Positions 85-55,973 of a stretch of 64,000 nucleotides of DNA are shown one piece after another. Both the position numbers and the translations under genes were made by a program. Source of the DNA: Spinacia oleracea. Lineage: Eukaryota; Streptophyta; Magnoliopsida; Caryophyllales; Amaranthaceae. The stretch spans positions 91,431,285 through 91,495,284 of the forward strand of contig NC_079488.1 in assembly GCF_020520425.1 (NCBI RefSeq), in the 5' to 3' direction. Within the stretch, counting starts at the first letter, position 1; each line of letters starts with the position of its first letter. The notes beneath the pieces are model-generated. The model was not told the DNA's origin. It did not search any database and worked only from the letters and a program-made list of their open reading frames with translations.

Positions 85-1551
85 TGTGAGGGGGTCGAAA
101 AAGCGCGAGGCTAATGCGTGACCTTGTCCCTCGTGGGTGTGACGATTCTTTTTATTCAAACAAGTGTAATTGGATTTCCTGTGAGTATACACCCAATTGA
201 CTAGTAATATAGGAGTCGCCATTCAGTTTTTAACGACAATGAGAAAAACTGACAAAACCCGGTTATCGTGACATAAAAGGAGTGCAATTATGTTTCACCA
301 CGACGGCCGTAGGTTCCCTTGTGATCCCTGGTGTGGGGATCTCTCAATATACACCCGCAAGGTAGAGATTGAGGGTTCGGGGGACTGTAACTACCGAGAG
401 GAGTAATTCGCTCGTCTATAACTCCAGAGGCAGGATATCCTTACTAGCTCAGCATAAATAATTGAAGGGACATGCGTTAACTATTAGACTAATCTGAGTT
501 GATTTTAACAATATGCAACATATAATACTAATTCGATCGTGATTATCTGATTTAAATAGCATTAAGGGACCTAGCATGATAATCCGATTTCCCAAAAATA
601 TTATATTTGTTAGGCGTGATAGAACATTCAGATTAGGTTAGTTTAACAGTTCATAAAAAGGGCGAAGAAAGCAGTTAAATCATCGAAAAGGGACACATTA
701 CGACGCACCCTTGAGAGGTGCGTCACGGTTCTCAAAAAACTAACCACTTTGACTTTGCTATTTCTCCTTTTTATTTAACGAATCTCAATTATGGGACAGG
801 ATACGTTCTGTTCGATTTATGGATCGATTGCGACAGAACGCGTGAACAGTTTCGCAGCGAGAGGCTTAGGCTAAGGGGTTTAGAGTCAATACTCATAATA
901 TATTATGTGTTGTTGTGTCCCTTTTTCACGTCGAAACTAGGGGCCTATTTATAGGGAAGAGTTCGTGGAAAGATAGAATTGCAGAGTTCTAATCCGCAAA
1001 GAATTAGGAAAAGAAACGTACCCAGGTATTTTCAGCGCCCAGGCCTAGGCGCCGAAGATTTCGGCGCCCAGAGCCAGGCGTTGAAAATAGGGTCTGGGCA
1101 GTTTTTTTTGTTTAGTCAGATTCGGATTCTAAAATTCGTAGAGTTTGAGATTAATTTGAGTCTTTTAGCGCGTATCAATTTGTGACGGAATGCGTCTGGG
1201 CCCGTTACGAACTCTAGGCTCGTTAGGATTTAAATTAATACGTAACTCTTATTTCCGAATCCTATTAGGAATAGGATTCTCGCAGTTTTCTATCTCATTT
1301 AGGATTTATGTTGGAATGCAACACCTAATTCTGACAGGTTTCTATCTTTTATGATTTGCCACTTTTAGAAGCTACCTTTTACGGCGGTTACTATTTTTAG
1401 CAGGTTTCCATAAATAGCAAGTTTCGGGTGAAATGAAATGGGGAATCGAGATTCGTTTATTTTATAGGAGATGCGTTGTCAAGTGGAGTTTTTATGCTTT
1501 CATCATCGAACCTTTCCCTTGCGGGAATGGGGACAAAAGTAGGTGTCTACA
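85..1551 (-). mobile_element. LTR of an Ogre/Tat-like gypsy retrotransposon (5' LTR, minus strand)
   Basis: The block runs TG...CA; read on the minus strand it starts TGTAGACACCTACTTTTGTC and ends CCCCCTCACA. A primer-binding site lies directly beyond it (66-84), so this is the 5' LTR of an element whose body lies left of the window. A TATA box (minus strand TATAAATAG) sits near 945-955. About 90 bp upstream of it is a GC-rich palindromic patch, GCGCCGAAGATTTCGGCGCC (1050-1069). Short ORFs inside it are chance. The lineage rests on the LTR start and primer site only. No target-site duplication can be tested because the other end is outside the window. Confidence 0.7.
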
Positions 1552-30637: not shown

Positions 30638-31019
30638 TGTTGGTTAATACCATGCAGTACCATGCAATGCAATACCACCACAATTAGTGTGCATCATCTA
30701 TCACCTGATCATTTCTTCTCTAACTGATTTTAGCTGACGTGGCAAGTCAGCAGGTGGTCTGTTATTCTACTGCATTCTGATTGGTTGTTATGCTCATGCT
30801 GCTCTCTGATTGGTTAGGACAGCATTACAGTTTTCTATATAAGCTTATCTATTGTATTATTGCAGTTAGTTAGTTTTTCCCTAATTGCTTGAGCTGTAAG
30901 CAAATCATCAATAAAGATTATATTCTCTCTTCTTCCTTAGCAGCTCAGTTTATAGTTGCTAAGGCCCAAACTGTGCGTTTGTTCTAAGCTACTTCAATGG
31001 AGATCAACTGATTTTATCA
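30638..31019 (+). repeat. Copia-2 5' LTR
   Basis: It starts TGTTGGTTAATACC and ends TTTTATCA. The TATA-like TCTATATAAGCTTA lies near 30,833. The primer site TGGTATCAGAGC follows at 31020-31031. Confidence 0.92.
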
Positions 31020-35601: not shown

Positions 35602-37465
35602 TGATAGATTAAAAAGTGATACCGCAAGTGCACGGTGTCTGTTGTTAGCAGATACTTAGCAAATACGGGTCGATCCCACAGGGAGACAAGTTCTATTAGT
35701 TTTTGCCCAATTATACGAACTATTTCAATAACGAAAGTTGAGTTTGAGTATTAACTACTAAAGCTAAAACAATAATAAAAATGCGTAATTTATCAATGAA
35801 TTAAAGGTCTAGGGCGTCTGTTCGGTTCACCATGCTTATACCAATCCAATAACATAATTTAATTCGACAACGAATAAACTAGGCCGAGTAATTAAAGTAC
35901 ATGCTAATCCTACGGTCGGGTCTTAACACTTTCAATTCAACATATGCAGTACGATCGCTAACATAATCAGAATTGCCAATTGTACAAAGCCTCTAAAAAC
36001 ACGATCTTTCGATTCTAATTCCTATTAGCTAGATAATTAATCCATGAAATTGGACGATAACATGAATCAACGATTAAGAACAAATCAATTGGAATTACTC
36101 AAGCAATAATCTATAGATTAGCAAACTTTATTGCATAACAATCATGGTATAAACATGGCTTCCCTAACTTAGCCCTAGAATATAACTACTCGCTCATAAT
36201 TGAATTAACAAGCATGAAATACATAATGAAAACGAGATTCATAATCAAAGGACGAATTAATCTAAGAAACGAAAATAATAAGAAAGAATAAAAGCAAAAG
36301 AAATTATTGAATTACCTCTAGATTGATTAATTGAATGGAATGAACTAGGGCTCAATAATGTGTAGAGAGAGAAATAAAACTGAACGTTTAAAAGAATTCT
36401 AGGAAAATAATAACATGAGGGAAATTAATTAGTTCCCTTGAGTATTTATATGCTCCTATTTTCTAAAATAAAAAAAATTAAATAAATATGAAAATAAAAA
36501 TAAAAGTCGTCGATGATTGGTCGATGGAGCGATGATGTGGCAGCCAAACCCGAGCACGAGCCGCGCACACGGGAAGATAGATGGCGAGGCATGGGCAGCG
36601 AGGGATCTCGCGCACCATCCCTCGCTGGCATCATGATGAGCGACTAGCAAGAAGGTAGAGCAGCGAGGGAGCTAGCGAGCCATCCCTCGCTGCCCTGCGC
36701 GTGTGTGTAGCAAGCCAAGCGACGAAGCTATAGGCAGCGAGGGAGCTAGCGAGCCATCCCTCGCTGGCCTAGTGAAGTGCAGCAAGACAAGACGACGAAG
36801 CTATAGGCAGCGAGGGAGCTAGCGAGCCATCCCTCGCTGGCCTAGTGAAGTGCAGCAAGACAAGACGACGAGCAACGAGGCAGCGAGGGAGCTAGCGAGC
36901 CATCCCTCGCTGGCCTAGTGAGATGCATAGCAGGCCAAGGCGACGAGCAACGAGGCAGCGAGGGAGCTAGCGAGCCATCCCTCGCTGGCCTAGTGAAGCA
37001 AGCAACCATGAAGCGATGAGGCACGACGATGGATGTAGCGAGGCAACGATAAATGTAGCGAGCCTACGATAAATGTCTTGCGAGCCAACGAGGGATCTTG
37101 CGAGCCAACGATAAATGTAGCGAGCCTACGATAGATGTCGTCTTGCGAGCCAACGAGGGGTCTTGCGAGCTATGCACAAGCGATATATCGAGTTAATCAT
37201 CCCCGGAAAACTCAATTCTCCGATCAAACACTTCGTCTCCGACTCAAACCATCCGGTGATCATTCGTTCCACCTCCAAACACTCCGAAAGCACCCAAATG
37301 ATTGTAAAATCACCTGAAATATCAAAGAAAACACAAACGGAGCGTAATAGAGTACAATAACGACGACTTATGCAATTATGACTCTAAATGCAACTAAAAT
37401 GAGACGAATGCCTAGAAATGCAACCTAAATGAGCCTAGAATACCCTATATAAATATGATTCATCA
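35602..37465 (-). repeat. Athila 3' LTR
   Basis: It is bounded by TGATAGATTAAAAAG and GATTCATCA on the plus strand. A minus-strand TATA box (ATATAAATA) lies near 36,443-36,453. Upstream of it, at 36,590-37,170, lies a tandem array of palindromic GCAGCGAGGGAGCTAGCGAG / CCATCCCTCGCTGGCC units, followed by GCGAGCCAACGA repeats. Confidence 0.94.
36590..37170 (-). repeat. Palindromic minisatellite upstream of the Athila LTR TATA box
   Basis: About five units of roughly 58-75 bp each contain AGCGAGGGA and TCCCTCGCT, able to form hairpins. A second array of TGTAGCGAGCC(T/A)ACGATA-type units follows. The same array is at 52,185-52,765 in the 5' LTR. Confidence 0.85.
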
Positions 37466-37480
37466 AATTCCCCCAAGCTA
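37466..37480 (-). other. Athila polypurine tract
   Basis: The minus strand reads TAGCTTGGGGGAATT directly before the 3' LTR. Two further copies of the core TAGCTTGGGGGA occur upstream (see the repeat entry at 38,330-38,992). Confidence 0.85.
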
Positions 37481-38329
37481 AACTGTTGCTTGTCCCCAAG
37501 CAACACTAGACCGAAAACAGAGAAATGAGACGCACATGACTTTCATTGAACTTGAACAAACCTACTCAACTCTCGGGCAAACAATCAAACAAAGTTATTA
37601 AGACAGAAATTTAGCTCGGATACAAATAGAACCACAAAGCATCATGATCCACAATTGAAACAACCAAGCTTAGCCACAAACCGTTCTCAATCAAGCTAGT
37701 CTTCGCCGCATACTTTGTAGAATATGAATATATGATGCAACGCGGGGTAAGATGACAATAGCAAGAAACAATTTTCGCTTATTCACAAAACAAACATGCC
37801 GATCAAGAGGTCTTTATAGTAAGCTTGTAACGGGGCTAGGTGGAAAGGAAGGGTAGGATATAATTTGGGAAAAAGTGAGAGTAAGGTCCAACTTGGGGAG
37901 CAAATGTGAACTATATGCGTCGGCGTGATAATGCTGAAAATCCAACTCCGTCGAACCATGAAACCCGAACAATCAACCAAGTTATATATGAGCAAGGGGA
38001 AAAACATAATATAATGTCAATGATCTTTGTTCAATCCCCTTTCCCTGCCTTCAAACTATATACAAAAACGAAAAACGTATTTTTGATTTTTCTTTGATTT
38101 TTCTTTTTTTTTTTTTTTTTTTTTTTTTTATTTTTTTTTTTAAAAACTGAAACTAAAGAATGAAATCGAAAGTACATAGATAAATCTAATTCTAACTGTT
38201 ACAAGCTTGGGTGCCAACAATAATATACACCATTTCCGAACCACAAATCCAAACATAGCCTCGAACCACGAACTATTGCCGTAGTGTGCCAATCAATCAA
38301 CATCGACGAAACCATTACGAACACCGAAG

Positions 38330-38992
38330 CTCCCCCAAGCTAGACTCGGGATAAGTAACCAACGGGGCTAATAGGGCTCAGTTTTGTGGAGTTAAAAGAA
38401 TAAACGGACAAGGCTACAACATGGGTATGAAAGGCAGGAACTGATGTTTCTAAATTCGTCTGAAGGCTTCCTATGAGAATGGCCTCTGTCATACGCGGCA
38501 TGCGTGAGTTGCAACTAAACTACTAGTGAATCTCAAGCCAAAATCATACGATAACAAGTCACATCAATCACACAAACACATAGTAAGGTGACCTACAAGA
38601 TAATTGGCTAGCTATTCTTGATACGAGACCAACATCTTACCGCATACCATTCAATTGGTTCACACAATGCCAAGCAGTTATCAATGTATAACACAACCGA
38701 CTGAATTTCAGAATCATAGCTAAGTTCAAGAGAAGCTCTAAAGAGTCAAAAAGAGTCTGAACATGGTTTGAAAGTCAAATTCACTATGCAGGGTATAAGG
38801 AAATATGAATGTAATGCAAGTAAAGAAAGACAACTAAACGAATCAGTAATACTAGGAAAGCAGTACATTTTTTTCGTTGCACGTAAACTCCCACCCCTAA
38901 TGGATGGTACAAAGCGTACAACACCTATGAAAGCGATAAAAAGTACACTAAGAAAGCAATAAAGGATAGGATATCCCTCCCCCAAGCTAGAA
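38330..38992 (-). repeat. Two additional polypurine-tract-like words inside the Athila 3' region
   Basis: On the plus strand CTCCCCCAAGCTAGA occurs near 38,332 and CTCCCCCAAGCTAGA again near 38,978, matching the core of the terminal tract. The long T run at 38,103-38,145 lies nearby. The rest of 37,481-39,054 has no supported coding sequence. Confidence 0.75.
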
Positions 38993-39054
38993 TGATGCAG
39001 TGACCCCACTGCGACAATACATAGTAATGCAAGGGAAAGAGAAAAAGGAACGAC

Positions 39055-40443
39055 TCACTCAGCAAGAGTCGGGGCAGGAGCTGGAAGCCGTCCAAGAATG
39101 GTGAAAACATCCTGTCGCAAAGAGGCAACCTGGTCGTCAAGAGCAGAGAGACGCTCAAAGACAGCAGTATGAAAAGTTTCGCAAAGCGAAACAAAGGCCC
39201 CCAGCTGGTGCTCAAGTGGTACAGAGCCAGTAATAGGAGTAGGTGATGTCGGACCCTCGAGGGTAGCAGCAATGGGAGACACAGGAGGACTCACTGAGGG
39301 TCCGGGGGGTGGACGCGCGGAGTCTGCCGTCCGGCTCCCCGGTCGTCGAAAGTCAGGTGAGAATGTCAAACATCCCAAGGTAGTGAGATCCGCTCGAGAA
39401 CACGGGAGATAGGCATAAGGGGAGTCGGCCAGGCGGTGTCCCCCTCGTTTCACGTTCCAAATATAACGATCTCCTGTCTCCTTGAGCCAACCAAAACGAC
39501 CCAATGCCTTAATATCAAGCAAATAGTTTTTCGATGAAACCGGCTTCTTGCCCTCAGTTGACAACCCAAAATGTTTGGCAATACTAGTGATAAAACCGCC
39601 ACAATGGATATCTCCAACATCTCTGTTGCGAGCAGTATGAAAAGCTGAGACCAAGAAAGAACCATAATCAATCGTAGGAAAGTCCGGGGTCCTTTCAATA
39701 GTGAAAGCCAATAAGTGTCTGAGGTCAGATGAGGTGACTTGATTCATCTCCTTTTTAGGGTAGAAGACACTCTTAATCACCCGATGGAGTAATCTGAGGG
39801 AAGGATTGATGATCGAGCCACACTTGCTATGGCCGGGATTCCAATCCTTTTTTCCAGTTATTCGAAACCAAAAGTGGGAGAGATCACAAGGTGTACCATC
39901 CTCGCCTATCTTGTCATCCAAGAAGGTGTTGAACCCGTATGAATCAATTAAGCATCCTTTCTCCCATCCAAATATATCATTTACCTCATCGACAGTCAAT
40001 TCGCGAGCTACACCACCAAGTTTAAAATACATCTTTGAGGGCTCTCCTTTAAACTCAAAGGAAGCTAGGAATTCATAAGTCCAATCTGCAAAAGTAAGCT
40101 CAGTAATACCAAGAAATTTCTCCCAAGACGAACCAGAAAGAAGTTCGTCAATACTAGAATGAAGTCCCAATTTGGTAGCCGCATCTATGGAGTAGAAAAG
40201 TGTAGAACGGACCGGTCTTTTGTGCAAGGCGGCTAGCAAAGATTGTTGGCGAAGCTCAGGATTTAGATGTGGTGGTGGTGGTGGTATTATGGGTGTGGGG
40301 GCTTGTAAGGGTGGTGGTAATATGGGTGGGGTGACTTTTGGTGGTGGGGGTTTTGGGGTGGGTGGCTTTTTGAATGTTGTAGGTTTGGGTGCAGTTGGTT
40401 TAGTGGCATTACGCTTAGGATTTGAGCGTCTTGGTGGTGTCAT
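39055..40443 (-). CDS. Athila downstream ORF (ATHILA ORF-1-like protein, env position)
   Basis: This is an uninterrupted 462-aa frame on the element's coding strand, 3' of pol. It begins MTPPRRSNPKRN and has a proline/lysine-rich stretch to about residue 70. A central globular region follows (FYSIDAATKLGL, FADWTYEFLASFEF, VDEVNDIFGWEKG) in the pattern of the ATHILA ORF-1 family of plant gypsy elements. A serine/proline-rich linker comes next, then a C-terminal heptad-like segment (LGAFVSLCETFHTAVFERLS) that could form a coiled coil. No signal peptide or clear membrane span is seen, so an envelope role is not supported by sequence. The function is unknown. Intact length in a broken element suggests recent activity of the family. 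Confidence 0.75.
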   Translation of the reverse strand: MTPPRRSNPKRNATKPTAPKPTTFKKPPTPKPPPPKVTPPILPPPLQAPTPIIPPPPPHLNPELRQQSLLAALHKRPVRSTLFYSIDAATKLGLHSSIDELLSGSSWEKFLGITELTFADWTYEFLASFEFKGEPSKMYFKLGGVARELTVDEVNDIFGWEKGCLIDSYGFNTFLDDKIGEDGTPCDLSHFWFRITGKKDWNPGHSKCGSIINPSLRLLHRVIKSVFYPKKEMNQVTSSDLRHLLAFTIERTPDFPTIDYGSFLVSAFHTARNRDVGDIHCGGFITSIAKHFGLSTEGKKPVSSKNYLLDIKALGRFGWLKETGDRYIWNVKRGGHRLADSPYAYLPCSRADLTTLGCLTFSPDFRRPGSRTADSARPPPGPSVSPPVSPIAATLEGPTSPTPITGSVPLEHQLGAFVSLCETFHTAVFERLSALDDQVASLRQDVFTILGRLPAPAPTLAE

Positions 40444-41968
40444 GGTGTATGAAATCTGTGATAAGTGTCACCACAATCAACAATGCCAACAATCCAAGTA
40501 AATCAAAACTCCGGTACTCCAAGCAACAATCAAATCAATGAAAACCAGAATTCACAATGAAGCAATTTGTCCCTCAATCAATTTCAATTGACAATCAAGT
40601 AATTCATGTAATTCAATTTAACCATAAGCATAGAAATTCTTGAATAATGTCAAAGAGTAAAATAGAGGGAGTAATTCAAATCTTACTACCAATTTGGTGA
40701 TGAATAGAGCATGAAATTGATGTAAATCTCCTCCTTTGACCCTTATGAAGTGCACAATTCAACCAATTTGAACTCCAATTATGAGAAACAAAAACCCCCA
40801 AATTGATTAAGTCTAGGGTTTATGGTGTTAAGGTGGGGAAAAGGTGAAGGATTTTGAGGGTGGGTGGCTGGTTTGGGGCGGCGCCGGCAACGGGGGTGGT
40901 CGCCGGCGGTGTTGTGGTTGTGGCAGTTGGTAGGTGATGGTGAGTGATGGGACGTTGGGTGGTGGTGGTGGAGAGTATTGGTGAGTGAGAGAAAGGCGTG
41001 ATGCGTGGGTAAAAGATTTTTGGGTGGGTTGATTGTGGCCTGAAGGGCGTCGAGTGAGGTGAGGCATGAGGGCTGGCAGCGCGAGCTCTCTCGCTGGCGT
41101 CGAGCCAGCGCTCGCTGGAAGTTACGAGCAAAGAGGAGTGGCGCGGGCTGTGGAATGACGAGGCATGCGCGCGCGAGACCTCTCGCTGGTGGTCGAGCAT
41201 CGCTCGCTGGAGCTGCGCGAGATCGATCGCTGATGACGAGGGATCCCTCGCTGGGCGCTGCGAGACTTGTTGCGCGTGCTCTCTCGCTGCATCGAGCCAG
41301 CGCTCGCTGGGCGCGAGCATAGGTGGGCTGGCTGGTGCACGACGAAGAGCAGCGCGGGCATTGGCAAGGGGCAGTGAAGGCTGGCAGGACGCGAGACATC
41401 GCTCGCTGGTGACGAGTGCTCGCTCGCTGGCGAGAGATGCACGCAATGGGACAAGTCCAGCGCTCACGCTGGATTGCCAGCGGGCAAGGCAGTGGCTCTC
41501 AATCGGAGTGGTTATAGGCCAGCGCGCACGCTGGGTAGGCGCTGGGTTTCGCGAGCTTGCGGCTTGTCGATGCATCAAAATTTCCGAAATTAACTCGATC
41601 TTGCACCTACACATCTTTTAAAAGGAAACAAGCACCACTAAAATAAAAAAATTAGAATCGTTAGTAAAAATTAAAACACGCAAAAATAAATTAAAAATTA
41701 CGATGACTGAAAACTAATCTAAAAATAAAATAAAAATAAAAATACGAAAATAAATAAATAAATAGATGAATTCAAGTGAACTCAAAAATAAAATATTTTT
41801 TTTTTTGTTCTTTTGTTGTTTATATACTTTTTATTTTTATTTTATTTTTGCAATAAAATAACCAAATAAATAAAATAAATTTCATTTAAAAAAAAAAGAG
41901 TTAGAAATCGGGTTGCCTCCCGATAAGCGCTCGTTTTAAGTCATTAGCTTGACTCCAAACCTCAATAG
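40444..41968 (-). repeat. Spacer between integrase and downstream ORF, with CGCTCGCTGG repeats
   Basis: No coding sequence is supported. From about 41,045 to 41,560 the word CGCTCGCTGG and its complement recur more than ten times, echoing the CCCTCGCTGG units of the LTR arrays. Overlapping open frames here (for example on the minus strand 40,779-41,614) are due to the GC-rich repeats. The 41,630-41,960 part is A/T-rich. The spacer could hold the leader, promoter or splice site for the downstream ORF. Confidence 0.6.
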
Positions 41969-42781
41969 TCAAGCGTCGGTGGGTGGATCGGAGAGATAGA
42001 TTGTCTCCAATTTTCCAATAAACGCTCCTTCAGTGTATAGCTTCAAACGTTGACCGTTCACTTTGAACTTGGTGCCATTTTCACTAGCAACCTCGATAGC
42101 TCCATGTTCCTTGACTTCGGTGATAGTAAAAGGTCCGGACCATCTAGACTTAAGCTTTCCTGGAAAAAGCCGTAGTCGTGAATTATAAAGCAAGACCTTA
42201 TCACCGATGTTGAACTCCCGTTTTTGAATCATCTTATCATGAAACTTCTTCGTTTGCTCCTTATAGAGCTTATGATTCTCGTAAGCTTCAAACCGTAGTT
42301 CATCTAGCTCATTCAATTGAAGAAGTCTCGCTTCACCGGCCGCTTCTAAATCCATATTGATCTCCTTGACGGCCCAAGTAGAGAGATATTCCATTTCAAC
42401 TGGTAAATGACAAGCTTTGCCATACACCAACCTATACGGAGTTGTCCCCAACGGAGTCTTGTAGGCCGTGCGCAACGCCCACAATGTGTCATCCAGCTTC
42501 AACGACCAATCTTTTCGAGACTTGTTGACCACTTTTTCGAGAATTCTCTTGATCTGTCGATTAGAAACTTCGACTTGGCCACTCGTTTGAGGATGATAAG
42601 CCATGCCAACCTTTTGAGTAACTCCGTGCTTCTTCAGAAGAGCCTTAAAAGTCCTTTGATGAAAATGGGAACCCCCATCACTAATCACGACCCTTGGGAC
42701 TCCAAAGCGCGGAAAGATGATTTTCTTGAAAAGCTTCTTTACGACGTTAGAGTCGTTGGTTGGCGATGCAATAGCTTCCAC
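41969..42781 (-). pseudogene. Athila integrase, C-terminal part (after the CACTA insertion)
   Basis: The frame resumes with [10 protein letters not shown]. It contains [18 protein letters not shown] (second catalytic Asp), then [16 protein letters not shown] with the catalytic Glu, and the C-terminal domain ending at the stop at 41,969. It is intact in itself, but separated from the N-terminal half by 3.6 kb. Confidence 0.9.
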
Positions 42782-43005
42782 CACTAGTGGAAAAAACGCC
42801 TATTGTAGCCCCCTTGTTGAGGGGGGCATACATAAGTGAGCCTCAATAACCACTCAGCCAACGCGGGTCAAATGTTTTACTAACAGGTTGAGGCGGGCTT
42901 TTGTGGTGTTCGCTTCTATAGATACTGTGGAAGGGGGCTTTTGATTGCCCGCCTCAATAGACACTAGTCTAAAGGGGCGGGCTTATGTTTGTTCGCTTCA
43001 ACAGG
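42782..43005. repeat. CACTA left subterminal repeat region
   Basis: Degenerate GAGGCGGGC(T) and GCCCGCCTCAATAGA words recur (42,815-42,990). They are probably transposase-binding sites, as in other CACTA elements. Confidence 0.7.
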
Positions 43006-44760
43006 TCTCCTCCTCACCGCCAAACAGATAAGATCTACTGGTTTTAATTCTCTCTCCTCATTTCATCTGTTTCATTTCTCTCTCTTCTCTCCCCTCTCCT
43101 CTCTCCTGGTTCAAAACTCCTCAAACCCGCTATTTCGTCAACAAATCGGGCTCCCACTCGCTCTCCTCACAGTCGTTGGCTTCCATGGAAGCTTTTCCTC
43201 CGCCTTCCATGGAAGAGTTACAAAGCTAGGGTATCTCCGCGACCTCTCTCCCTCGACTCTTCAAACTCGTCGATTTGTCTCCCTCCTCAAGCTAGGGTAT
43301 ATCGATTCTATCGTTTCTGCTTTCTTTTTTCTTAATTTTATGCTGGTATTGCGAAAAATTAATGTTATGGGTGTTGAATTCGTTCAATTTGAACTTTTGA
43401 TGCCGCATTTTGGTATATAGTATAGATCTATGATGTTTTGTTGTTTTTAATTGGTTAAATCTAATTTTTGATGCCTCGTTGCATAATATGAGAACATGTA
43501 TTTGAAATTTATTAAGTTAGGGGTTTCGATATTTGCAATAATCGCAATTAAGGTTTATTTCAATAATGTTCCTCTTTTACGCTTCTAATTTGCATACTGA
43601 ATTTCTTCGTTATTCATATTAATATAATAAGTCGACATCTTAGTATCTGAAATAGAATTGGGTACTTTCAGCAAATTGTTGCTAGTAATATTTTTGGTTG
43701 ACTAAGTTGTTGAGTATGATTTAGCCTAGAGGGTGGAAATCTTGAGTACTTGTCTTCAGAGTTTTCCCTAATCATCAGATTAATAATAACAATCTCAGAA
43801 AGGTTTGATTCGATTGTAAAGAAAACTCTGGATTTGAATATGAGTGCACATTATGTTCACTGGATTCTGCTTGTGATAAGCATATAAGTTTAGTGTAAAT
43901 ATGTATCCCTGCATTGTAGGAGTAAACTTCAAGCATTTAGAGGGAGTATGTTTGGATTAGGTACATTTCATAATGAACAAAGTATGGAGGTGTAGTATTG
44001 TGAAACTTTAGATTTTGGTAGTTCTTCATTTCGAATCATCTAGTGTGGGCGAAAGGTGCTATACTAGTATTCGCACATAAATGATTCAATTTTGAACTTA
44101 AGTTGATTGTGGAATTTGCTAGACTTTCCTCCCTGCAAAATAAGCTGGTAATGTCTCAGAACTTATGAAGTTTGGTACAGTACTATCTATACTCCTGTAT
44201 TGTGCAAGAAAGGAAGTTAAACAATTTGGGATGAAAGTTCAAGACAGTCAAACAGACTCTTCCTGAATGTTTCGTCTGAATACCAGTAAATGAATTAGAT
44301 CACAGGCACAGTCAATCTCCTCGATTTCTCAATTTCATATAGGGAATTAGTAGAATGGTCTAATTTGGTATCTGATGTAGCTTATCCTGTCTTCTGGGTG
44401 TTTGTCCTGTCTTTTAATGAACAATCCTTGTGATGCGCACAAAATTTTCTAAAGTGAAGTTTCACAATGAAACAATATGTCACATATAAGGCAGGAATTT
44501 TATGTTTTTTCACTGGTTCTTTAACTTACTGAAATAGCATTGCTGGATAAGTCGTTTTACAAGTGATATACAATACAACTACTACCTACTGTTACAGGGG
44601 ATATGATGCTACAGTCCCATGATGCTCTTGTAACATTCATAAAACTGTATTTTTTTGTGCGCTGTATGTTTACACTAGTAATTTCGCTGCTCATAATATC
44701 TGGCTCTCTATGTGTTGCACTAGAATGACTAGATAAATCTGATTTTATTTAAGTAGGTAT
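43006..44760 (+). other. CACTA interior, possible captured 5' region
   Basis: 43,010-43,320 is CT-rich and resembles a plant 5' UTR/leader (TCTCTCCTC, CTAGGGTATCTCC). The remainder looks like intron sequence. No exon could be assigned with confidence. It may be the upstream part of the captured cyclin gene. Confidence 0.35.
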
Positions 44761-44764
44761 ACTA

Positions 44765-45833
44765 TGTGTTTGATGAAGCAAACATGGCTTTTGTGCTTCC
44801 TGTTGATGACTATAAGCATGCTCATTACTATTTTCATTATGAATAGTACTAGCTGCGTTCCTCCAAATTATATGGACAGGCAACCTGACATTAATGAAAA
44901 GATGAGAGCCATTCTGGTTGATTGGCTGATTGAGGTAATTTTGCAAGCATTACTTATTTCTTATAGTCGAGAGAAAGTTAACTATAACCAGTGGTGCCAC
45001 TAACTATCTGATATTGAACCAAAAGGTCCATTATTAGTTTGAGCTCATGGAGGAGACGATATATCTGACAGTTAACCAGATCGACCGCTTCTTAGCAATT
45101 AAGCCAGTGGGGAGAAAAAAAGCTCCAGCTAGTAGGTGTCACAGCAATGCTTCTGGCTAGGAAATATGAAGAGGTGTCAGCTCCGGTTGTTGAAGATCTG
45201 GTACTGGTATCTGATAGGGCTTATAGTAGGCAAGAAGTTATTAATATGGTAAAAATCTACAGAGTGGTGTTATGGTAATGTACATTCTGCATTGTTGGAT
45301 CAGATATTTGTATCAACATCTTGCTATCTTTTTCTTCTGGTGATTAGTTTCTGAAACTGATGGTCTTTTTTAATTGTTGGATCTTTAACAGCTCGAACTC
45401 CTGTCCTTTTTGATTGAGCTTTGCCTGATTGAGTAAGAAGTGTTGAAGTTCCCACCTTGTCTATTAGCAGCAACATCAGTATTCAGTGCTATGTGCACTA
45501 TGAGTGGGTGCAAGCATTGGAAGAAGACCTGTGCGTGGCACACTGGTTATTCTCAAGATCGGTTAATGTAAGCACTCTTGTACTTGTCATTTCCTAAATT
45601 TACGTCTGAGTAAGCCAACAATTATATATTCATTGTTTATGGTTTGTTTCAGGGACTGTTCAAGACTGATGATTACTTTCCATCTGAACGCTGCATCAGC
45701 AAAGCTCACTGGTGTACTGTCCATCGGAAGTACAACACTTCTAGATATGGCTACACAGCAAAATGCGAACCAACTCTCTTTCTCTTAGAAACCATTGGGT
45801 TCAGTGGGTGGACATACAAATAAGGAAGCCAAA
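44765..45833 (+). pseudogene. Captured cyclin B (B2-like) gene fragment with introns
   Basis: Segments match consecutive parts of the B-type cyclin core. 44,765-44,934 ends [20 protein letters not shown]...WLIE at a GT donor. 45,026-45,248 begins after an AG acceptor with [20 protein letters not shown], then [20 protein letters not shown]. 45,392-45,567 has FLIELCL and LKFPPCLLAA. 45,653-45,833 has VHRKYNTSRYGYTAKCEP. Retained introns show DNA-level capture, not retroposition. Lesions are a TAG just before FELMEE, an A-run frame change after GRKK, a TAA in the third segment and a missing exon between segments two and three. B cyclins activate CDK at mitosis; this copy cannot. Confidence 0.87.
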
Positions 45834-45915
45834 TGAATCCACCGTTCTCTTGGGGTCTGGCATTAAGGACTTTAAAGCAACTGAAGTTGTGCCCTCTTCT
45901 ACTGAAGTTGTGTGA
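45796..45915 (+). other. Unidentified open tail after the cyclin segment
   Basis: In a second frame the 39 codons WVQWVDIQIRKPNESTVLLG...STEVV end in TGA. The composition looks coding, but I do not recognise it. It may be a second captured fragment or chance. Confidence 0.3.
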
Positions 45916-46087
45916 ATTTATATTGTAAAATTACATTAAACAATATTATTTCAATATTAATGTGAGCGAAAGATTTATTGTTTACAATTGTCTATTTTAT
46001 GAGTATTATAGTTCTTTTATTACCTAACAAAAAAAATTAAAGCAGAATATTAGTGGTGGTAGCCCAGCTAAGCTGTGATTAAGACAA

Positions 46088-46383
46088 TGTTTGCCTCAAC
46101 AGGCTTGTCTGTTGAGGGGGGCAATTTAATGTTCGCCTCAACAGGCTTGTCTGTTGAGGGGGGCTTTATAAATGCCCGCCTCAACAGGTGTTAATTTCAG
46201 CATCAACAGGCTTGTCTGTTGAGGGGGGCTTTCAAATGCCCGCCTCAACAGATATCTTTTTGAGGCGGGCTAGGCCCGCCTCAACAGATCTCTGACCTGT
46301 TGAAGCCCCCTCTGTTGAAGCGGGCCATGTTCGCCTCAACAAGCCCGAAATGCCCCCCTCAACAGGGGTTTTTTCCACTAGTG
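46088..46383. repeat. CACTA right subterminal repeat array
   Basis: Four or more copies of GCCTCAACAGGCTTGTCTGT followed by TGAGGGGGGC lie in tandem and inverted order, ending in the terminal repeat. The array is palindromic and denser than at the left end. Confidence 0.88.
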
Positions 46384-48348
46384 CACCCACTTTGTAACGT
46401 AATCAACGGCAACCAAGATGTACCGATTCCCACATGAGGAAGGGAACGGTCCCATAAAATCAATGCCCCATACATCAAATGGCTCAACTTCAAGAATTCC
46501 GGTCTGTGGTAGCTCTTGCCTTTTCGAAACGTTGCCCGTCCGTTGACATTCATCACATGCATTGCAAAAGAAACGAGCATCCTTGAATATAGAAGGCCAA
46601 TAGAAACCACTTTGAAGAGTTCGATGGGCGGTCGGAATAGCACCAAGATGGCCACTAGAAGGTAAACTGTGGCAATGCTTAAGAACCCCTTGGGTATCCC
46701 AATCCGCTACACACCTACGAAACATACCATCGGCACACTTCCGATACAAATGTGGATCATCCCAAAAATACCGCTTAGCATCATGGTAGAATCTCTTACG
46801 TTGTTGATATGTCAATTCCGGAGGATGGGAGCCACCAACACAATAGTTTGCAAAGTCCGCATACCATGGGGATTGAGTAGACACGGAGAATAGATGATCG
46901 TCAGGAAAAGAATCATTGATAGGCCCGTCTGTGCTAGATTGAAATTTCAACCGAGAGAGATGATCTGCAACAACATTCTCAGCACCCTTCTTATCCCGAA
47001 TCTCCAAATCAAACTCCTGGAGAAGAAGAATCCATCGAATAAGTCTCGGTTTGGCCTCTTTCTTGGCCAACAAATACTTCAAAGCGGCATGATCAGTGTG
47101 TATAATGACTTTCGATCCAACAAGATACGTCCGGAATTTGTCAAGTGCATAAACAACCGCAAGGAGCTCTTTCTCAGTAGTAGCATAATTCATCTGAGCT
47201 CCATCCAAGGTTTTGCTTGCATAATAGATGGCATGCAACACCTTGTTCTTTCTTTGGCCAAGCACTGCTCCAACAGCATAATCACTCGCATCACACATAA
47301 TTTCAAACGGCAAATCCCAATCCGGAGGCTGAATGATCGGAGCAGTTATCAATGCTTTCTTTATCCTGCCAAAAGACTCCAAACAAGCATCAGTGAACTC
47401 AAATGTGGCATCCTTGAGCAGTAATTGAGTGAGGGGTTTCGCAATTTTAGAAAAATCTTTTATGAAACGGCGATAGAAACCCGCATGACCGAGAAAACTC
47501 CTCACTCCCTTGACATTCACAGGAGGGGGAAGTTTCTCAATCACCTCAATCTTTGCTCGGTCAACTTGGATGCCACGCTCAGAAATAAGATGACCAAGTA
47601 CCACTCCTTCATTGACCATAAAGTGGCACTTTTCCCAGTTCAATACCAAATTCACCTCAGAACAACGTTTAAGCACTTTAGAAAGATTATGCAAACATAC
47701 ATCAAAGTCAGAACCATAAACACTAAAATCATCCATAAATACCTCCATGATATCCTCGATGAAGTCAGAAAAAATGGCCATCATACACCTTTGAAATGTA
47801 GCAGGGGCGTTGCACAAGCCAAACGGCATTCTGCGGTATGCAAAAGTTCCATATGGACAGGTGAACGTCGTCTTCTCCTGGTCATCCGGGTGAATGGGAA
47901 TCTGAAAGAAACCTGAATATCCATCCAAATAACAGAAAAAGTTGTGTTTTGCTAATCTTTCTAGCATCTGGTCAATAAAGGGGAGGGGAAAGTGATCCTT
48001 CAAGGTGGCCGTATTCAACATTCTATAATCTATACACATACGCCAACCTGTGACAACACGAGTAGGGATAAGCTCATCCTTATCATTCTTAATGACCGTT
48101 GTCCCCCCCTTCTTAGGAACGACTTGCACCGGGCTCACCCATTTAGAATCTGAAATGGGATAGATGATGCCCGCATCAAGTAGTTTCACTACCTCTTTTC
48201 TCACCACATCTTGCATATTAAGATTCAAACGACGTTGTGGTTGGATGCGAGGGCGGTGATCTGCTTCCAAATTAATTCTATGCATACAAAAGTCAGGACT
48301 AATGCCCTTGAGATCGTCAATGCTATACCCGATTGCCTTTTTGTGCAT
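46384..48348 (-). pseudogene. Athila reverse transcriptase, RNase H and integrase N-terminal part
   Basis: The frame begins [18 protein letters not shown]. It contains reverse transcriptase blocks ([18 protein letters not shown] at about 47,716-47,745), RNase H ([41 protein letters not shown]), and the HHCC integrase zinc finger ending [11 protein letters not shown]. It stops at the CACTA junction after YVTKWV. It overlaps the gag-protease frame by 26 nt in another frame. It is either a one-base lesion near 48,345 or a frameshift site. Otherwise it is uninterrupted. Confidence 0.92.
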
Positions 48349-51058
48349 ATATACGGAGCACGGTCAGAAGCTTAGAAAGCTGGCTATCATCGAGTGCAGC
48401 ATTAACGATCACAGGAAAATCCTCAGTATCATCAAGAAATGCATATTTAAGGTGGGATGGTAACGGTTTTAGTTCTACTTTCGTTACCTGTGGCTCGGAA
48501 ATAGAGCAAACAGTTTCTAATACCTCAAAACCATCGACCTTCTCAGCTTCACTTCCATCTAAATCCGAGATCAAGGAATCAATCTCACAATCTCCTTCTC
48601 CTTTTCGGGCCTGCAAGGTGAGAGTCGCCAGCAATAGATCATCATACAACATTCTAGGAATGTTGTCTAGAGAAATTTCTTCTGCAATATCAATCCTGCA
48701 ACAAGTATTCTCAAGCATAGGAGACTTCACAGCATTGGTTAGATTAAAAGTAACAGTATCATCACCAACACTCAAAGTAAGAGACCCGGACTTGACATCA
48801 ATGACAGCACCTGCAGTACATAAAAATGGCCTACCCAAAATTATGGGAATTTGACTATCCTCCTCCATATCTAGCACTACAAAATCAACAGGAATGTAGA
48901 ATTTCCCCACCCGGACAGGAACATCCTCCAAAATACCCAAGGGATACTTTATAGAACGATCTGCCATTTGCAACGTGATTTGTGTGCATTTTAGTTTTCC
49001 CATATTCAACCTATTACAGACAGAAAGGGGCATGACAGACACACTTGCACCTAAATCACACAATGCTTTATCAATGAACAATGCACCTACATGACAGGGG
49101 ATGGAAAAACTACCCGGATCCTTAAGTTTGGGTGGAGACTTATTTTGCAATATCGCACTACACTCTTCAGTTAGAGCGACTCTCTCCACACCACCATAAT
49201 CCCTTTTCTTAGTGATCATCTCTTTCAAAAATTTTGCATAAACAGGAACTTGAGATATTAAATCAGTAAAAGGGACCGTTACCTCAAGATTCTTGACCAT
49301 TGCCAAGAACTTACCAAGCTGTTGATCGACCTTAGTTTTCTGCATCCGGTGAGGGAAAGGTAACTTAGGCACGATAGGGAGAGAATCAGAAATCTTCTCT
49401 TTCCCCTTATTTGCACCAACATCATCAGCATTATCAACTTCCATGACTCGAGGCTCTGCATCAGTTGCTTTCCCTGGTCCATCTGTGTTCCCCTTAGCAA
49501 GAGTTGCATCATCAGTGGGCATCGGGGGTCCATTATATTTAGTGCCACTTCTAAGAGTGATAGCATTGGCACTTTCTCTGTTCTGGGGCGGAGTAGGTTG
49601 CCCTGGTAGTGTACCCGGTTGCCTTTGAGATAGAGTGTCAGCAAGTTGGGCAACTTGATTCTCCAACATTCTATTCTGATTCTTCAACTCTTTGATGCTC
49701 TCATCATGGTTCTTTTGAGCTATCTCTGCGGTCTTCTGCATATTTGCAATGAGCTTATACAGATCACCCATGTTAGGCTCTGGAGTAGCACTGCTCTGAG
49801 GGGGTTGTTGATATCCTTGATGCGGGGGCCTATTAAACCCCGGGGGAGCATTATGTGAGGCTCCTTGTTGAAATGGAGGCCTAGCAACATGTGGTTGAGG
49901 TGGATGGAACTGTGGTTGCGACCATTGTTGTTGGGGTTGAGGATTCTGAACATTGTTGCCCCGATATGAGAAATTTGGATGATTCCTCCAACCCGGATTA
50001 AATGAATTGGAGTATGGGTCATTGGGTTGTCTCTGTTGAAAAGCATTCACTTGCTCCAATTGCGTAGTATCCTGTAAACTATAAGAGCACTCATGACCAA
50101 AGTGACCTTGGATGCCACATACTTCGCAGTAAGAAGTTGTCACTGGAGCTACACTAGACATAGCATTGATACTCATTGGGGGTGTACTAGACTGAGGAGC
50201 CTTCAAAGAATCGATCTTCAGGTTCAAGGCTGCCACTTGTGAGGACAATAGAGCATAAGCATCGACATCCAATTTTCCCTTCTTAGATGTGGATCTGGTG
50301 GTGCTGTAATGGTTGGCAGCTAAGTTGGCAAGAAAATCATAACCTGCATCCACTTCTTTGTCAAGAAAAACACCCCCAGCAGCAGAATCAACCGTGTTCT
50401 TTGTTTCATCTTGCAAACCATGGTAGAAAATCTGAACCAAGAACCATTTTTCAATATTGTGATGCGGACACGACCGCTGCAAAGCCTTGAATCTATCCCA
50501 GGCTTCTCGAAGTGATTCACCAGGTTCTTGAGTGAATGTAGTTAGCTTATGCCTTATTTCAGCAGTCTTGGTGGGTGGAAAGAATTCTTCTAGAAAGGCC
50601 TGTGAAATAGCACTCCACTCTGTCTCCTTGACATCATTCAACCATATATGAGCCTTATCACGAAGGCTAAAACCAAACAACATGACTTTCAATTGGTCTT
50701 GAGTGACCCATTGATGCTTGATAGTACCACACAGTTGGTTGAACCTCTGCAAATGGTTGGTGGGTTCCTCAGATGGATGGCCACCAAATTGACTTTCTGA
50801 GACCATGGAGATTAGAGCGGGCTTGATCTCAAAGTTGACTGTATCAATAGTTGGCATTGTGAGCCCAGTCGGAACACTATTCGAGGAAGGAACCCCATAT
50901 GATTTCAGGGATTTAGACATCGTGTGACTCGGTGGAGTCTGTGAGTCTTGGGACCCTGACTGCTTCTTCTTTTTCTGTTGCTTTTTTAGTTGACGAAGAG
51001 TCTTTCCAAGATCGGGATCGGGAGGAACCAAGGTACCCGTTCTGGCAGACCTGGGCAT
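48323..51058 (-). CDS. Athila gag-protease
   Basis: The open frame extends to 51,124, but the first plausible start is the internal Met at 51,058 ([10 protein letters not shown]), as expected for Athila gag. Domains in order are a retrotransposon gag region ([18 protein letters not shown], about 50,530-50,610), a CCHC knuckle ([14 protein letters not shown], about 50,090-50,130), a Q/P-rich linker, and an aspartic protease with [12 protein letters not shown] (about 49,030-49,065) and IILGRPFL. It packages and matures the element's particles. The frame is intact; it ends 26 nt into the reverse transcriptase frame. Confidence 0.9.
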
Positions 51059-51172
51059 AAACAACAACGAAAGAAAACGCAGTGAGATTTGCCTCAATTG
51101 GAACTGAGAGTTCCAATAAGACAATGGAAACAGTTCAAATAATCAAACTAAAACTAATAGAATATAGCCGTC

Positions 51173-51190
51173 TCCCCGGCAACGGCGCCA
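51173..51190 (-). other. Athila primer-binding site
   Basis: The minus strand reads TGGCGCCGTTGCCGGGGA, the Athila tRNA primer site, six bases (AAAACT) from the LTR. Confidence 0.92.
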
Positions 51191-51196
51191 AAAACT

Positions 51197-53057
51197 TGAT
51201 AGATTAAAAAGTGATACCGCAAGTGCACGGTGTCTGTTGTTAGCAGATACTTAGCAAATACGGGTCGATCCCACAGGGAGACAAGTTCTATTAGTTTTTG
51301 CCCAATTATACGAACTATTTCAATAACGAAAGTTGAGTTTGAGTATTAACTACTAAAGCTAAAACAATAATAAAAATGCGTAATTTATCAATGAATTAAA
51401 GGTCTAGGGCGTCTGTTCGGTTCACCATGCTTATACCAATCCAATAACACAATTCAATTCGACAACGAATAAACTAGGCCGAGTAATTAAAGTACATGCT
51501 AATCCTACGGTCGGGTCTTAACACTTTCAATTCAACATATGCAGTACGATCGCTAACATAATCAGAATTGCCAATTGTACAAAGCCTCTAAAAACACGAT
51601 CTTTCGATTCTAATTCCTATTAGCTAGATAATTAATCCATGAAATTGGCCGATAACATGAATCAACGATTAAGAACAAATCAATTGGAATTACTCAAGCA
51701 ATAATCTATAGATTAGCAAACTTTATTGCATAACAATCATGGTATAAACATGGCTTCCCTAACTTAGCCCTAGAATATAACTACTCGCTCATAATTGAAT
51801 TAACAAGCATGAAATACATAATGAAAACGAGATTCATAATCAAAGGACGAATTAATCTAAGAAACGAAAATAATAAGAAAGAATAAAAGCAAAAGAAATT
51901 ATTGAATTACCTCTAGATTGATTAATTGAATGGAATGAACTAGGGCTCAATAATGTGTAGAGAGAGAAATAAAACTGAACGTTTAAAAGAATTCTAGGAA
52001 AATAATAACATGAGGGAAATTAATTAGTTCCCTTGAGTATTTATATGCTCCTATTTTCTAAAATAAAAAAAATTAAATAAATATGAAAATAAAAATAAAA
52101 GTCGTCGATGATTGGTCGATGGAGCGATGATGTGGCAGCCAAACCCGAGCACGAGCCGCGCACACGGGAAGATAGATGGCGAGGCATGGGCAGCGAGGGA
52201 TCTCGCGCACCATCCCTCGCTGGCATCATGATGAGCGACTAGCAAGAAGGTAGAGCAGCGAGGGAGCTAGCGAGCCATCCCTCGCTGCCCTGCGCGTGTG
52301 TGTAGCAAGCCAAGCGACGAAGCTATAGGCAGCGAGGGAGCTAGCGAGCCATCCCTCGCTGGCCTAGTGAAGTGCAGCAAGACAAGACGACGAAGCTATA
52401 GGCAGCGAGGGAGCTAGCGAGCCATCCCTCGCTGGCCTAGTGAAGTGCAGCAAGACAAGACGACGAGCAACGAGGCAGCGAGGGAGCTAGCGAGCCATCC
52501 CTCGCTGGCCTAGTGAGATGCATAGCAGGCCAAGGCGACGAGCAACGAGGCAGCGAGGGAGCTAGCGAGCCATCCCTCGCTGGCCTAGTGAAGCAAGCAA
52601 CCATGAAGCGATGAGGCACGACGATGGATGTAGCGAGCCAACGATAAATGTAGCGAGCCTACGATAAATGTCTTGCGAGCCAACGAGGGATCTTGCGAGC
52701 CAACGATAAATGTAGCGAGCCTACGATAGATGTCTTGCGAGCCAACGAGGGGTCTTGCGAGCTATGCACAAGCGATATATCGAGTTAATCATCCCCGGAA
52801 AACTCAATTCTCCGATCAAACACTTCGTCTCCGACTCAAACCATCCGGTGATCATTCGTTCCACCTCCAAACACTCCGAAAGCACCCAAATGATTGTAAA
52901 ATCACCTGAAATATCAAAGAAAACACAAACGGAGCGTAATAGAGTACAATAACGACGACTTATGCAATTATGACTCTAAATGCAACTAAAATGAGACGAA
53001 TGCCTAGAAATGCAACCTAAATGAGCCTAGAATACCCTATATAAATATGATTCATCG
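51197..53057 (-). repeat. Athila 5' LTR
   Basis: It is nearly identical to the 3' LTR, with a TATA box near 52,037-52,047 and the palindromic array at 52,185-52,765. The outermost base is G at 53,057 (A in the partner). Confidence 0.93.
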
Positions 53058-53669: not shown

Positions 53670-54718
53670 GATAGAAATTGTTTGCTAGGAAGTGCTTGTT
53701 CAAGGAAGTGTGCCTAATGTGAAAAGCCTATCTGTGAATCACAGGGATAAAGGTGCAGATATGCCATCTGAAGACATACAATTTAAGCCGCCTAAAGTTT
53801 CTAAGAATTCTAGTTGCACGGGTTTCTCTCAATAGAATCAGAGACAAACCTGTTTATCTGGTAATCAATTTGTCTCCATTCTCCAATGCTAGCTGTGTAC
53901 AGATCTTATTAAGAAGTATGTTTAAGTTGCTGGCAGATTTGAGCGTATGAGGTTGCTAAAAACTGCATTGTTCCTAGTAGTCGAGAGGAAAGGGGTAAAT
54001 CGTTTTTTTCCTTTACGGATCTGTTTGTTTCAAAGGAAAACCATTTTCAAGGGAAAAAACAATTGTAAAATAGTTTTCTTTTGTTTGTTTCCTTACAAGA
54101 AAAGTTAGTGAGAAAAAGGAAATGGAAGTGAAGGAGAGGGTAGACGGGAGGAGAGAAAGAGAAATGTAAGGAGTAGACATGAAAATGTGGCTTTCCTTAT
54201 TTCCAAAGGAAATTGTTTTCCATCCTTAACAAAACAAATAGAAGAAAATTGAATATTTTTCTTCCTGGAATGTGTTTCCGTCAAAACAAAAAGAGCTAAT
54301 AGCTAACTGTTTAAAGAACATCTCTCCCCACCCCCATGATGAATATGTGAGAACATGTCAACTATTACAATTTTACATTTCAGTTCCCTGTAACTTGATC
54401 AATCTTTTTAAAAGGTCAAGCAGCTAGACTTTTCAAAGAAGTATTTTGTCTATTTGGTGATTTGGTCCATATAGGTTACCCGTCAGGCCGTCACCTAATA
54501 TTGAATGATGATCTTTATCTTCCATTACTCTGAACTGCTTGTGATGACTTTTATCTATCTAGTTGTTAAGTGCCGTAATTTTGCGGCTACTCCCACTTGG
54601 AAAAGTGGAAGAAGTGTTGAATGGTGCAATCTGATTTCATATTGTTGAAATGAAACACCTTCTCTGACATAAAAGTTTCCTAACTGCAACATTGCTTCTC
54701 CTTATATCTTACTTAGTC
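53670..54718. other. Host DNA upstream of the receptor-kinase remnant
   Basis: No gene is clearly supported. 53,690-53,830 reads open for a while (SVPNVKSLSVNHRDKG) but ends in stops and is unrecognised. 54,015-54,297 has GGAAAACCATTTTC-type words and imperfect inverted ends resembling the Tourist MITE at 13,446; it is probably a decayed relative. Confidence 0.4.
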
Positions 54719-55973
54719 ATGGCATGCTTTCCTATCTCTTGGTCTTCTTTACTTCACATTCTGATCTCTCTGCTTATTTTCTCGATTAATCGTTTTGCAG
54801 TAGCTGACCCGGCCTATGTATTTTCCCTTTGCTCAGATATGCAAACTGTTGCACCAACTAGTAATTATCAGACTAATGTTGATGCTCTTCTGTCTTCCTT
54901 CTCATCTAACAACGCCAATGAAAGCCTCTTCTACAACACAACTGTTGGGATTGGAGCAAATAAGGTCTATGGCTTCTTTTTCTGCGGTTTTGATGAAACT
55001 GTTGCTATCTGCCAGAAGTGCATTTCCTTGGCCATCAACTCGTTGAATTCCCGTTGCCGTGGACAGAAAGAATCTGTAGTATGGTATGATCAATGTCTGG
55101 TACGATACTCTAATGAGTCTTTCTTTGGTACCATGAATGATGCTCCAATGATACCAATGTGGAACAGACAGAACGCTGTTGACATACAGAACATTACAAA
55201 CAACCAATTGGGTTTTACACAAGTTCTGCTAGGAACTTTGAGAAATGTTTCATCCGAAGCAGCAACAGGTCCATCTGGAAAAAAATTGCTACAAAGGAAG
55301 GGAAATTTGTGGCTAATTTGACAAGCATGAACTTGCTTTACACGCTTGCTGAATGCACCCCAGATATTTCTGTGAGGGACTGCAACACTTGTCTCCAGAT
55401 GACCATTGGCAACATGACAGACATGTGCAACATGAAGCCAGGTTGCACTATGATGAATCCCAGTTGTAATATTAGGTACGACGTATACGCTTTTTATGGA
55501 GATGCTGTCACACCCACTTTAGGACCTCCGTCTGTTCCCTTTTCCGTAGGTAAGAATGTAAGAAACTTTAATAAGGTTCATTTTATTTTATTTGGTTTGA
55601 GTTGCTGCCAGATTGGCTATGAGTGAGGTTTGTTTAGTTCTAAGTGATGTTTGTGCCATCAATCCATTTTTGTGTTGGGTAAAATTTTCTTATTTTATTT
55701 TTTAAAATTATATCATATGATGGACTGATGGAGCTAATGCTGTAATGCACAAGGATCATCCCTTGGTTGTCTTGTGGCCAAGTTCACTCTGCCAGTAAAA
55801 TGAATAATGCCGTGTAATTTATGTCAAATAGATACCTCCAGAAAAGAGTCAAGGCGTAAAAAGGCATTACTTATAGTAGGCGTCAGCAATTTCAGTTATT
55901 TTGGCAATGGTGATTCTTTTCGGAGCTTGGAATTTATAGCACAAAAAAAGTTCCAAGAAACCAATTTTAGGTA
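54719..55973 (+). pseudogene. Cysteine-rich receptor-like kinase (CRK), 5' exons only
   Basis: The start was chosen at the second Met (54,719), which gives a signal peptide MACFPISWSSLLHILISLLI ending near FAVA|DPAY. The first exon carries two DUF26 (Gnk2) domains with the C-X8-C-X2-C motifs CGFDETVAICQKC and CTPDISVRDCNTC. It ends in a donor after PFSVG (about 55,550). A second exon (about 55,829-55,973) keeps a membrane span (ISVILAMVILFGAW) and ends at GTAAGAACT. Lesions are a frame change at the A7 run near 55,277 and a frame change plus stop in the membrane exon. CRKs are plasma-membrane sensors in stress and immunity signalling. No kinase exons remain before the Tat element at 56,067; they may lie right of the window. 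Confidence 0.85.

Follow-up and report, generated by a model that had tools for sequence, protein, structure and literature searches.

The stretch analysed here, which we call the window, comprises 64,000 nucleotides of spinach (Spinacia oleracea) contig NC_079488.1, from position 91,431,285 to 91,495,284 of the forward strand. At positions 42782–46383 of the window, on the + strand, lies a 3602-bp non-autonomous CACTA transposon of the Pack-CACTA type, one of eight copies that carry a piece of a B2-type cyclin gene (CYCB2). The sequence CACTAGTGGAAAAA is found exactly at 42782–42795 (+) and 46370–46383 (−) and nowhere else, and the perfect inverted run CACTAGTGGAAAAAAC extends over 16 bp to give the terminal inverted repeats (TIRs) at 42782–42797 (+) and 46368–46383 (−), as part of a 24-bp arm with 92% complementarity. 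The element is flanked by a target site duplication (TSD) of the three bases CAC, at 42779–42781 and 46384–46386. Removing the element and one TSD in silico gives an empty site in which the integrase reading frame of the host sequence is restored (...DYVTKWVEAIASP...), and we take the rejoined frame to be a plant Ty3/gypsy integrase motif.

These features are those of the CACTA (En/Spm) superfamily. TIRs that start with CACTA are present in all eight cyclin-bearing copies, and 3-bp TSDs are perfect in seven of the eight as well as in the three related elements L016, L020 and L021 described below. Short subterminal repeats in both orientations adjoin each end. The repeat GCCTCAACAG has five exact occurrences in the window where 0.06 would be expected, every one of them in the 3′ end of the element, and when up to two mismatches are allowed there are 11 (+) and 10 (−) occurrences within the element, two of which are interior. 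Folded as DNA, the 3′ end is much more stable than shuffled sequences (z −11.5), as expected because of the inverted subterminal repeats. A scan of 15 open reading frames (ORFs) with Pfam, out of 95 stop-to-stop ORFs listed (some of them not inside the element), gave no transposase, and the longest ORF entirely within the element is 150 amino acids. As no ORF for Transposase_21 or its partners was among the 15 scanned, the element is classed as non-autonomous. A search for the TIR in viral contigs gave no match. A preliminary description, made from the letters of the stretch, had proposed perfect CACTA ends, a CAC duplication and the lack of a transposase, and all three hold.

The cyclin portion occupies positions 44752–45905 (+), approximately 1.15 kb of the 3.6-kb element, and runs from within an intron to the 3′ region of the gene; these limits were set by eye, while the BLAST pieces span 44754–45900. 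It contains four recognisable exons, which we call a, b, d and e. Exon a (44847–44934, +) is followed by exon b (45026–45248, +), which has a nonsense codon at 45035–45037 and a 1-bp insertion in a run of A near 45116. Downstream of this is a fused intron remnant (45249–45391, +), in which approximately 153 bp of donor sequence, including a 33-amino acid exon c, has been replaced by 27 bp. Exon d (45392–45567, +) has lost one codon and contains an in-frame TAA, while exon e (45653–45823, +) has a 5-bp insertion and ends at a stop codon. When six ORFs were compared with Pfam, three matched Cyclin_N (E values of 2.1e-8, 3.1e-5 and 2.2e-13), one matched Cyclin_C (2.2e-8) and two gave no match. 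No remnant of exon c could be recognised in the 143-bp fused intron, as 449 of 500 base shuffles scored as well as the real sequence. Further CYCB2 exons outside 44800–45814 were also rejected, with a best E value of 0.029 against 120 cyclins and 0.31 against spinach CYCB2.

The donor is a CYCB2 gene at C5:111642795–111645230 (minus strand), which matches P0241, a spinach G2/mitotic-specific cyclin-2 isoform X2 and the closest cyclin found, exon by exon. Three BLAST pieces of the element (44754–45285, 45313–45808 and 45851–45900) align to this gene at 87–88%. The alignment begins in intron sequence upstream of exon a, covers exons a and b, continues through portions of the introns flanking the lost exon c, and then takes in exon d, an intron, exon e and a short piece of 3′ sequence. 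Neither the donor gene nor approximately 5 kb on either side of it has a match to the element ends. With gaps left out, donor and element differ at 44 of 631 exon sites and 35 of 391 non-coding sites (Jukes-Cantor distances of 0.073 and 0.095). At plant substitution rates between 7e-9 and 1.3e-8 per site per year, element and donor would have separated roughly 4–7 million years (My) ago. A protein tree with 26 rows places the element as sister to spinach CYCB2 (support 100/99), on a branch of 0.14 compared with 0.016 for the gene, and with quinoa as outgroup 16 of the 21 differing residues fall on the element side, three on the spinach side and two are undecided.

This analysis bears out most of what the preliminary description had said of the interior. 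All four of the cyclin B2-like blocks that it quoted are found in the translations. The cyclin covers only a third or so of the element, lacks the 33-amino acid exon and shares the element with DNA of another gene (43831–44755). The introns with GT/AG borders are present and also correspond in sequence to those of the donor at C5:111.643 Mb, a gene with no match to the element ends within approximately 5 kb, so that the proposed Pack-type capture at the DNA level stands. The suggested searches for a donor and for further copies of the 5′ end both succeeded, and the view that the cyclin does not work is upheld by the comparison of copies below. As a side observation, the 33-amino acid exon that the element has lost is also absent from nine of 13 aligned database CYCB2 proteins (P0001, P0002, P0004, P0005, P0006, P0014, P0018, P0020 and P0027), a proportion raised by the use of a query that itself lacks the exon and thus favours proteins without it, yet several gene models do leave this exon out.

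Upstream of the cyclin portion, positions 43831–44755 (+) match C3:2080367–2081486, differing from it at 115 of the 951 sites compared; among the places scored this is the sole match outside the eight copies. The C3 segment is flanked on each side by an ORF piece that resembles thioredoxin weakly (E values of 2.7e-4 and 0.086, both below the curated cut-offs), and it is therefore most likely an intron fragment of a thioredoxin-like gene. Of nine ORFs considered as possible coding sequence in 43030–44740, eight of which precede the cyclin, none had a Pfam match; the region is explained in part as C3 intron DNA. Judged from these alignments, the element is a chimera of two donors, the C3 thioredoxin-like intron and the C5 CYCB2 gene. 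The switch from one to the other is abrupt, at approximately 44747–44755. At the other border of the cyclin portion, a 12-bp stretch present in CYCB2, ACTGAAGTTGTG, is repeated within 45880–45912 (+), at 45880–45891 and 45901–45912, so that it is duplicated across the junction with the 3′ end; one copy of the element, L013, has a 21-bp deletion at this site. Positions 43315–43671 (+) recur at 93–95% in 20 other places of the genome among those scored. The one of these that we examined, L052, contains diverged pieces of the 5′ end (76–79%) but yielded no exact TIR; we infer that this segment belongs to the CACTA family.

To find other copies, the genome was searched with the first 201 bp of the element, and 40 of 765 candidate places were scored, with identities of 96–100%, the window included. 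Among the 20 best-ranked places after the window's own, seven hold the whole element including the cyclin and thirteen have other interiors. The resulting eight full-length copies differ pairwise by 0.08–1.3% (mean 0.93%), equivalent to 98.7–99.9% identity at ungapped sites. All eight have CACTA ends, the 16th base being different in L014, and seven have identical TSDs on both sides (AGA, CTG, TTT, GCA, GAG, ATC and CAC). The 10-bp flanks and the TSDs differ among the eight copies, as in separate insertions and not as in parts of a single larger segmental duplication. The flanks of L010, one copy of the seven, match retrotransposon polyproteins, and those of L012 and L015 match repeats found in this window. 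Window positions 94–916 match the flanks of L015 and positions 1287–1551 the flank of L012, and these repeats are beside or around those copies.

When the DNA was searched with the element interior and 40 of 61 candidates were scored, the full-length matches were again these eight. A genome-wide protein search with spinach CYCB2, in which all 88 candidates were scored, recovered eight full sets of exons and the donor gene, together with paralogous cyclins and three decayed fragments, but no full set beyond the eight loci. The decayed pieces lie outside the elements at C6:42343316–42343489, C6:24772038–24772583 and C4:92634322–92634540, and are possibly other captures or old pseudogenes.

The eight copies also have their damage in common. 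Every one of them has lost exon c and contains the in-frame TAG and additional A of exon b, the in-frame TAA of exon d and the 5-bp insertion of exon e, from which it follows that capture and decay came before the spread; at each of the seven splice sites examined, GT or AG is retained in all eight. Variable columns among the copies number 23 of 658 in exons, 9 of 318 in introns and 36 of 1532 in 43315–44846, with 19 of 532, 13 of 440 and 1 of 63 in further parts. The variable exon sites are distributed as 11, 4 and 8 over the three codon positions. On these counts the exon variation among the copies is neutral drift. Since every copy has the stops, frameshifts and lost exon, and the exons are as variable as the non-coding sites, none encodes a working cyclin.

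The thirteen places with other interiors show that the ends belong to a larger family. All thirteen share approximately the first 530 bp with the element: a 5′ end at 42782–43314 (+) made up of the TIR, subterminal GCCTCAACAG-type repeats and a CT-rich leader is present at 87–91%. The 3′ end, with its subterminal repeats and TIR (45908–46383, +), is present in seven of the thirteen, these being the seven whose examined stretch reached that far. One interior is found in six relatives (L016–L019, L023 and L025), a second is common at least in part to another six (L021, L022, L024 and L026–L028), and a third is found in L020 alone, so that with the cyclin type four different interiors lie behind one 5′ end among the copies examined. 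One representative of each type was traced to its right end: L016 at C6:39297848 is 4289 bp with TSD TTA, L021 at C6:39560330 is 5006 bp with TSD TAC, and L020 at C1:28293284 is 3912 bp with TSD CAC. L016 contains an alkenal/double-bond reductase exon, which matches PDB sequences with E values down to 1.2e-9 and an NCBIfam model at 6.5e-9, below its cut-off, and has no Pfam match. L021 has an exon that is weakly SBDS-like (Pfam 0.024 and 0.0055, NCBIfam 0.013, all below cut-offs) with no PDB match. At 2405–2626 of L020 there is what we presume to be a CHX-antiporter-like motif, for which Pfam gave no match. With its constant ends and varied cargo the family looks like a cassette system, and the CT-rich leader common to its members (to 43314) may correspond to an untranslated exon.

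In the window the element is the innermost of three nested insertions. Its host is an Athila-type Ty3/gypsy element at 35602–53057 (−), with ATHILA ORF-1, gag, reverse transcriptase and integrase domains, long terminal repeats (LTRs) at 35602–37465 and 51197–53057 that are 99.6% identical, and a TSD of ACAAC. This in turn is enclosed by an older copia-type element at 30638–53669 (+), assigned by its RVT_2 domain, with LTRs that are 95.6% identical and a TSD of GATAG; the LTR limits and TSDs of both retrotransposons were set partly by eye. The order is thus copia-type, Athila and CACTA from outside to inside, with TSDs of GATAG, ACAAC and CAC. The Athila LTRs have four aligned differences (five counting the last base) in approximately 1861 sites, plus one 3-base gap, which at the substitution rates given above places the Athila insertion at about 0.08–0.2 My ago, and the CACTA element landed in the integrase gene after this. 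Downstream of the nested retrotransposons is an ORF with a Stress-antifung (DUF26) domain (54692–55321), as in cysteine-rich receptor-like kinases.

We propose that one element of a large CACTA family in spinach took up, at the DNA level, a piece of the C3 thioredoxin-like intron and the 1.15-kb piece of CYCB2 from C5 between its ends, that the cyclin cargo decayed to a pseudogene and that transposition afterwards multiplied the composite, now present at eight places, and we give this account a probability of about 0.96. A related autonomous CACTA would have supplied the transposase in trans, and the window copy landed in the Athila integrase gene, later than the insertion of Athila itself. 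Most probably the cyclin piece is carried along silently. Certain observations weigh against the proposal: positions 43672–43830 are covered by neither donor alignment, part of them matching two places on C5; the copy L011 has an imperfect TSD (CCA/CTA); no autonomous CACTA partner was identified, so that supply in trans is deduced; the movement of the copies is read from their structure; and the silence of the cargo is judged from sequence.

As for the way in which the cargo was acquired, two unlinked donors in one element would imply more than one round of capture or the joining of pieces during repair. The pieces might have been joined non-homologously during repair of an excision gap, or neighbouring insertions might have fused over repeated rounds. 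Fusion of neighbouring insertions that flank a gene is reportedly the model put forward for Pack-CACTA elements by Catoni et al. in 2019, as relayed in PMC8903248. That paper presents it as a general proposal with examples in several superfamilies. That two neighbouring CACTA insertions fused around a gene, rather than gap repair joining unrelated pieces, is a serious but somewhat doubtful explanation here: with donors on two chromosomes a minimum of two rounds is required, the element ends have no match within approximately 5 kb of the CYCB2 donor today, and the 12-bp duplication at the junction fits end-joining or template switching.

The preliminary description suggested that the transposon-borne copies could exert antisense or small-RNA effects on their parent. 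Across the five donor exons examined, 145 of 637 21-mers and 118 of 622 24-mers are unchanged in the element, with a longest run of 71 nucleotides, and such long perfect matches would allow small-RNA effects on CYCB2. Sequences captured by maize Helitrons, Pack-MULEs and Sireviruses are described as reservoirs of small interfering RNAs (siRNAs) acting on their donors, with CACTAs not named in the part of the text available (PMC13317346), and the accessible text on a soybean CACTA reports that its gene fragments are transcribed and spliced (PMC1947982). However, the authors of the soybean work think that transcription starts outside the CACTA (PMC1947982, in the same portion), and the spinach element sits in a retrotransposon. 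The exons drift like non-coding sequence and thus give no sign of a selected function. An action of transcripts or siRNAs from the eight copies on the parental CYCB2 seems improbable. In a broader version the family would be a cassette system, in which a single set of ends and a shared, transcribed leader serve interchangeable cargo from several genes (CYCB2 with the thioredoxin intron, alkenal reductase, the SBDS-like exon and others), and the eight cyclin copies, with their retained splice sites and long perfect matches, would yield spliced or small RNAs that adjust CYCB2; this seems very improbable.

From the window alone it is possible in principle that a CACTA element without cyclin entered Athila and gained the cyclin piece there afterwards, but this is refuted by the seven further copies at unrelated sites with the same cargo and lesions. 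In addition, approximately 0.9 change would be expected in 658 exon bases since the Athila insertion (upper limit 2.1, computed with five LTR differences) against 16 element-specific amino acid changes, so that we consider addition in place extremely remote. The idea that the cyclin portion arose from CYCB2 by reverse transcription, as a processed copy, had no supporting point and has a negligible chance. It is refuted by the intron sequence that precedes exon a, separates a from b and d from e, and surrounds the position of the lost exon c, all of which is present and aligns to the donor introns.

A literature search, at the level of result lists, returned no CACTA-borne cyclin and no spinach Pack-CACTA, and occurrences of "cyclin" in PMC8978399 and PMC4938662 were parts of "cycling". 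Pack-TYPE and Pack-CACTA elements are described, in the accessible text of PMC8903248, as non-autonomous TIR elements with captured gene DNA. The spinach element resembles them in its non-autonomous CACTA ends, in the host gene fragments between its TIRs, whose donors are located and whose introns match, and in the multiplication of the cargo by transposition (transduplication) to eight dispersed full-length copies, seven with perfect TSDs. Unlike the Pack-CACTA elements described there, it has two donors on different chromosomes, one of which supplied an intron only, and four interiors lie behind one 5′ end.

The soybean element Tgm-Express1 is a CACTA that, according to the sections available (PMC1947982), contains five gene fragments, including the cell-cycle gene CDC2, which are spliced as exons. 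Both elements carry unrelated host gene fragments that keep their introns, and both include a cell-cycle gene. Tgm-Express1 differs in its five fragments, its position within a flavanone 3-hydroxylase gene and its demonstrated splicing, while the spinach element has two identified donors, lies in a retrotransposon and is known here from its DNA. Captured gene fragments are also reported, in the portion of PMC8978399 available, for CACTAs of Chenopodium, such as Jozin, which come from the same plant family and have structured subterminal repeats. The spinach TIR starts almost like those of these elements (CACTAGTGGAAAAAA... in C. sosnowskyi), while by eye against the motifs given there the spinach subterminal repeats are GCCTCAACAG-like and not of the 12-bp TATTTGTAACTA / TATTTGCGTCAC kind. 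The four complete Jozin elements also differ in their size of 8–10 kb and in having a transposase ORF (ORF 1) of approximately 3.3 kb, much longer than the 150-amino acid ORF that is the longest entirely within the spinach element.

Set beside these systems, the spinach element is a Pack-CACTA and a further, well-resolved case of a gene capture that is already known, with two donor loci, the junctions, the order of events and the detected copies all available in one genome. A chimera of two donors with readable junctions helps to discriminate between the mechanisms proposed for gene uptake by CACTA elements. A crop family whose interiors are interchangeable provides material for asking whether captured cell-cycle sequences silence their parents.

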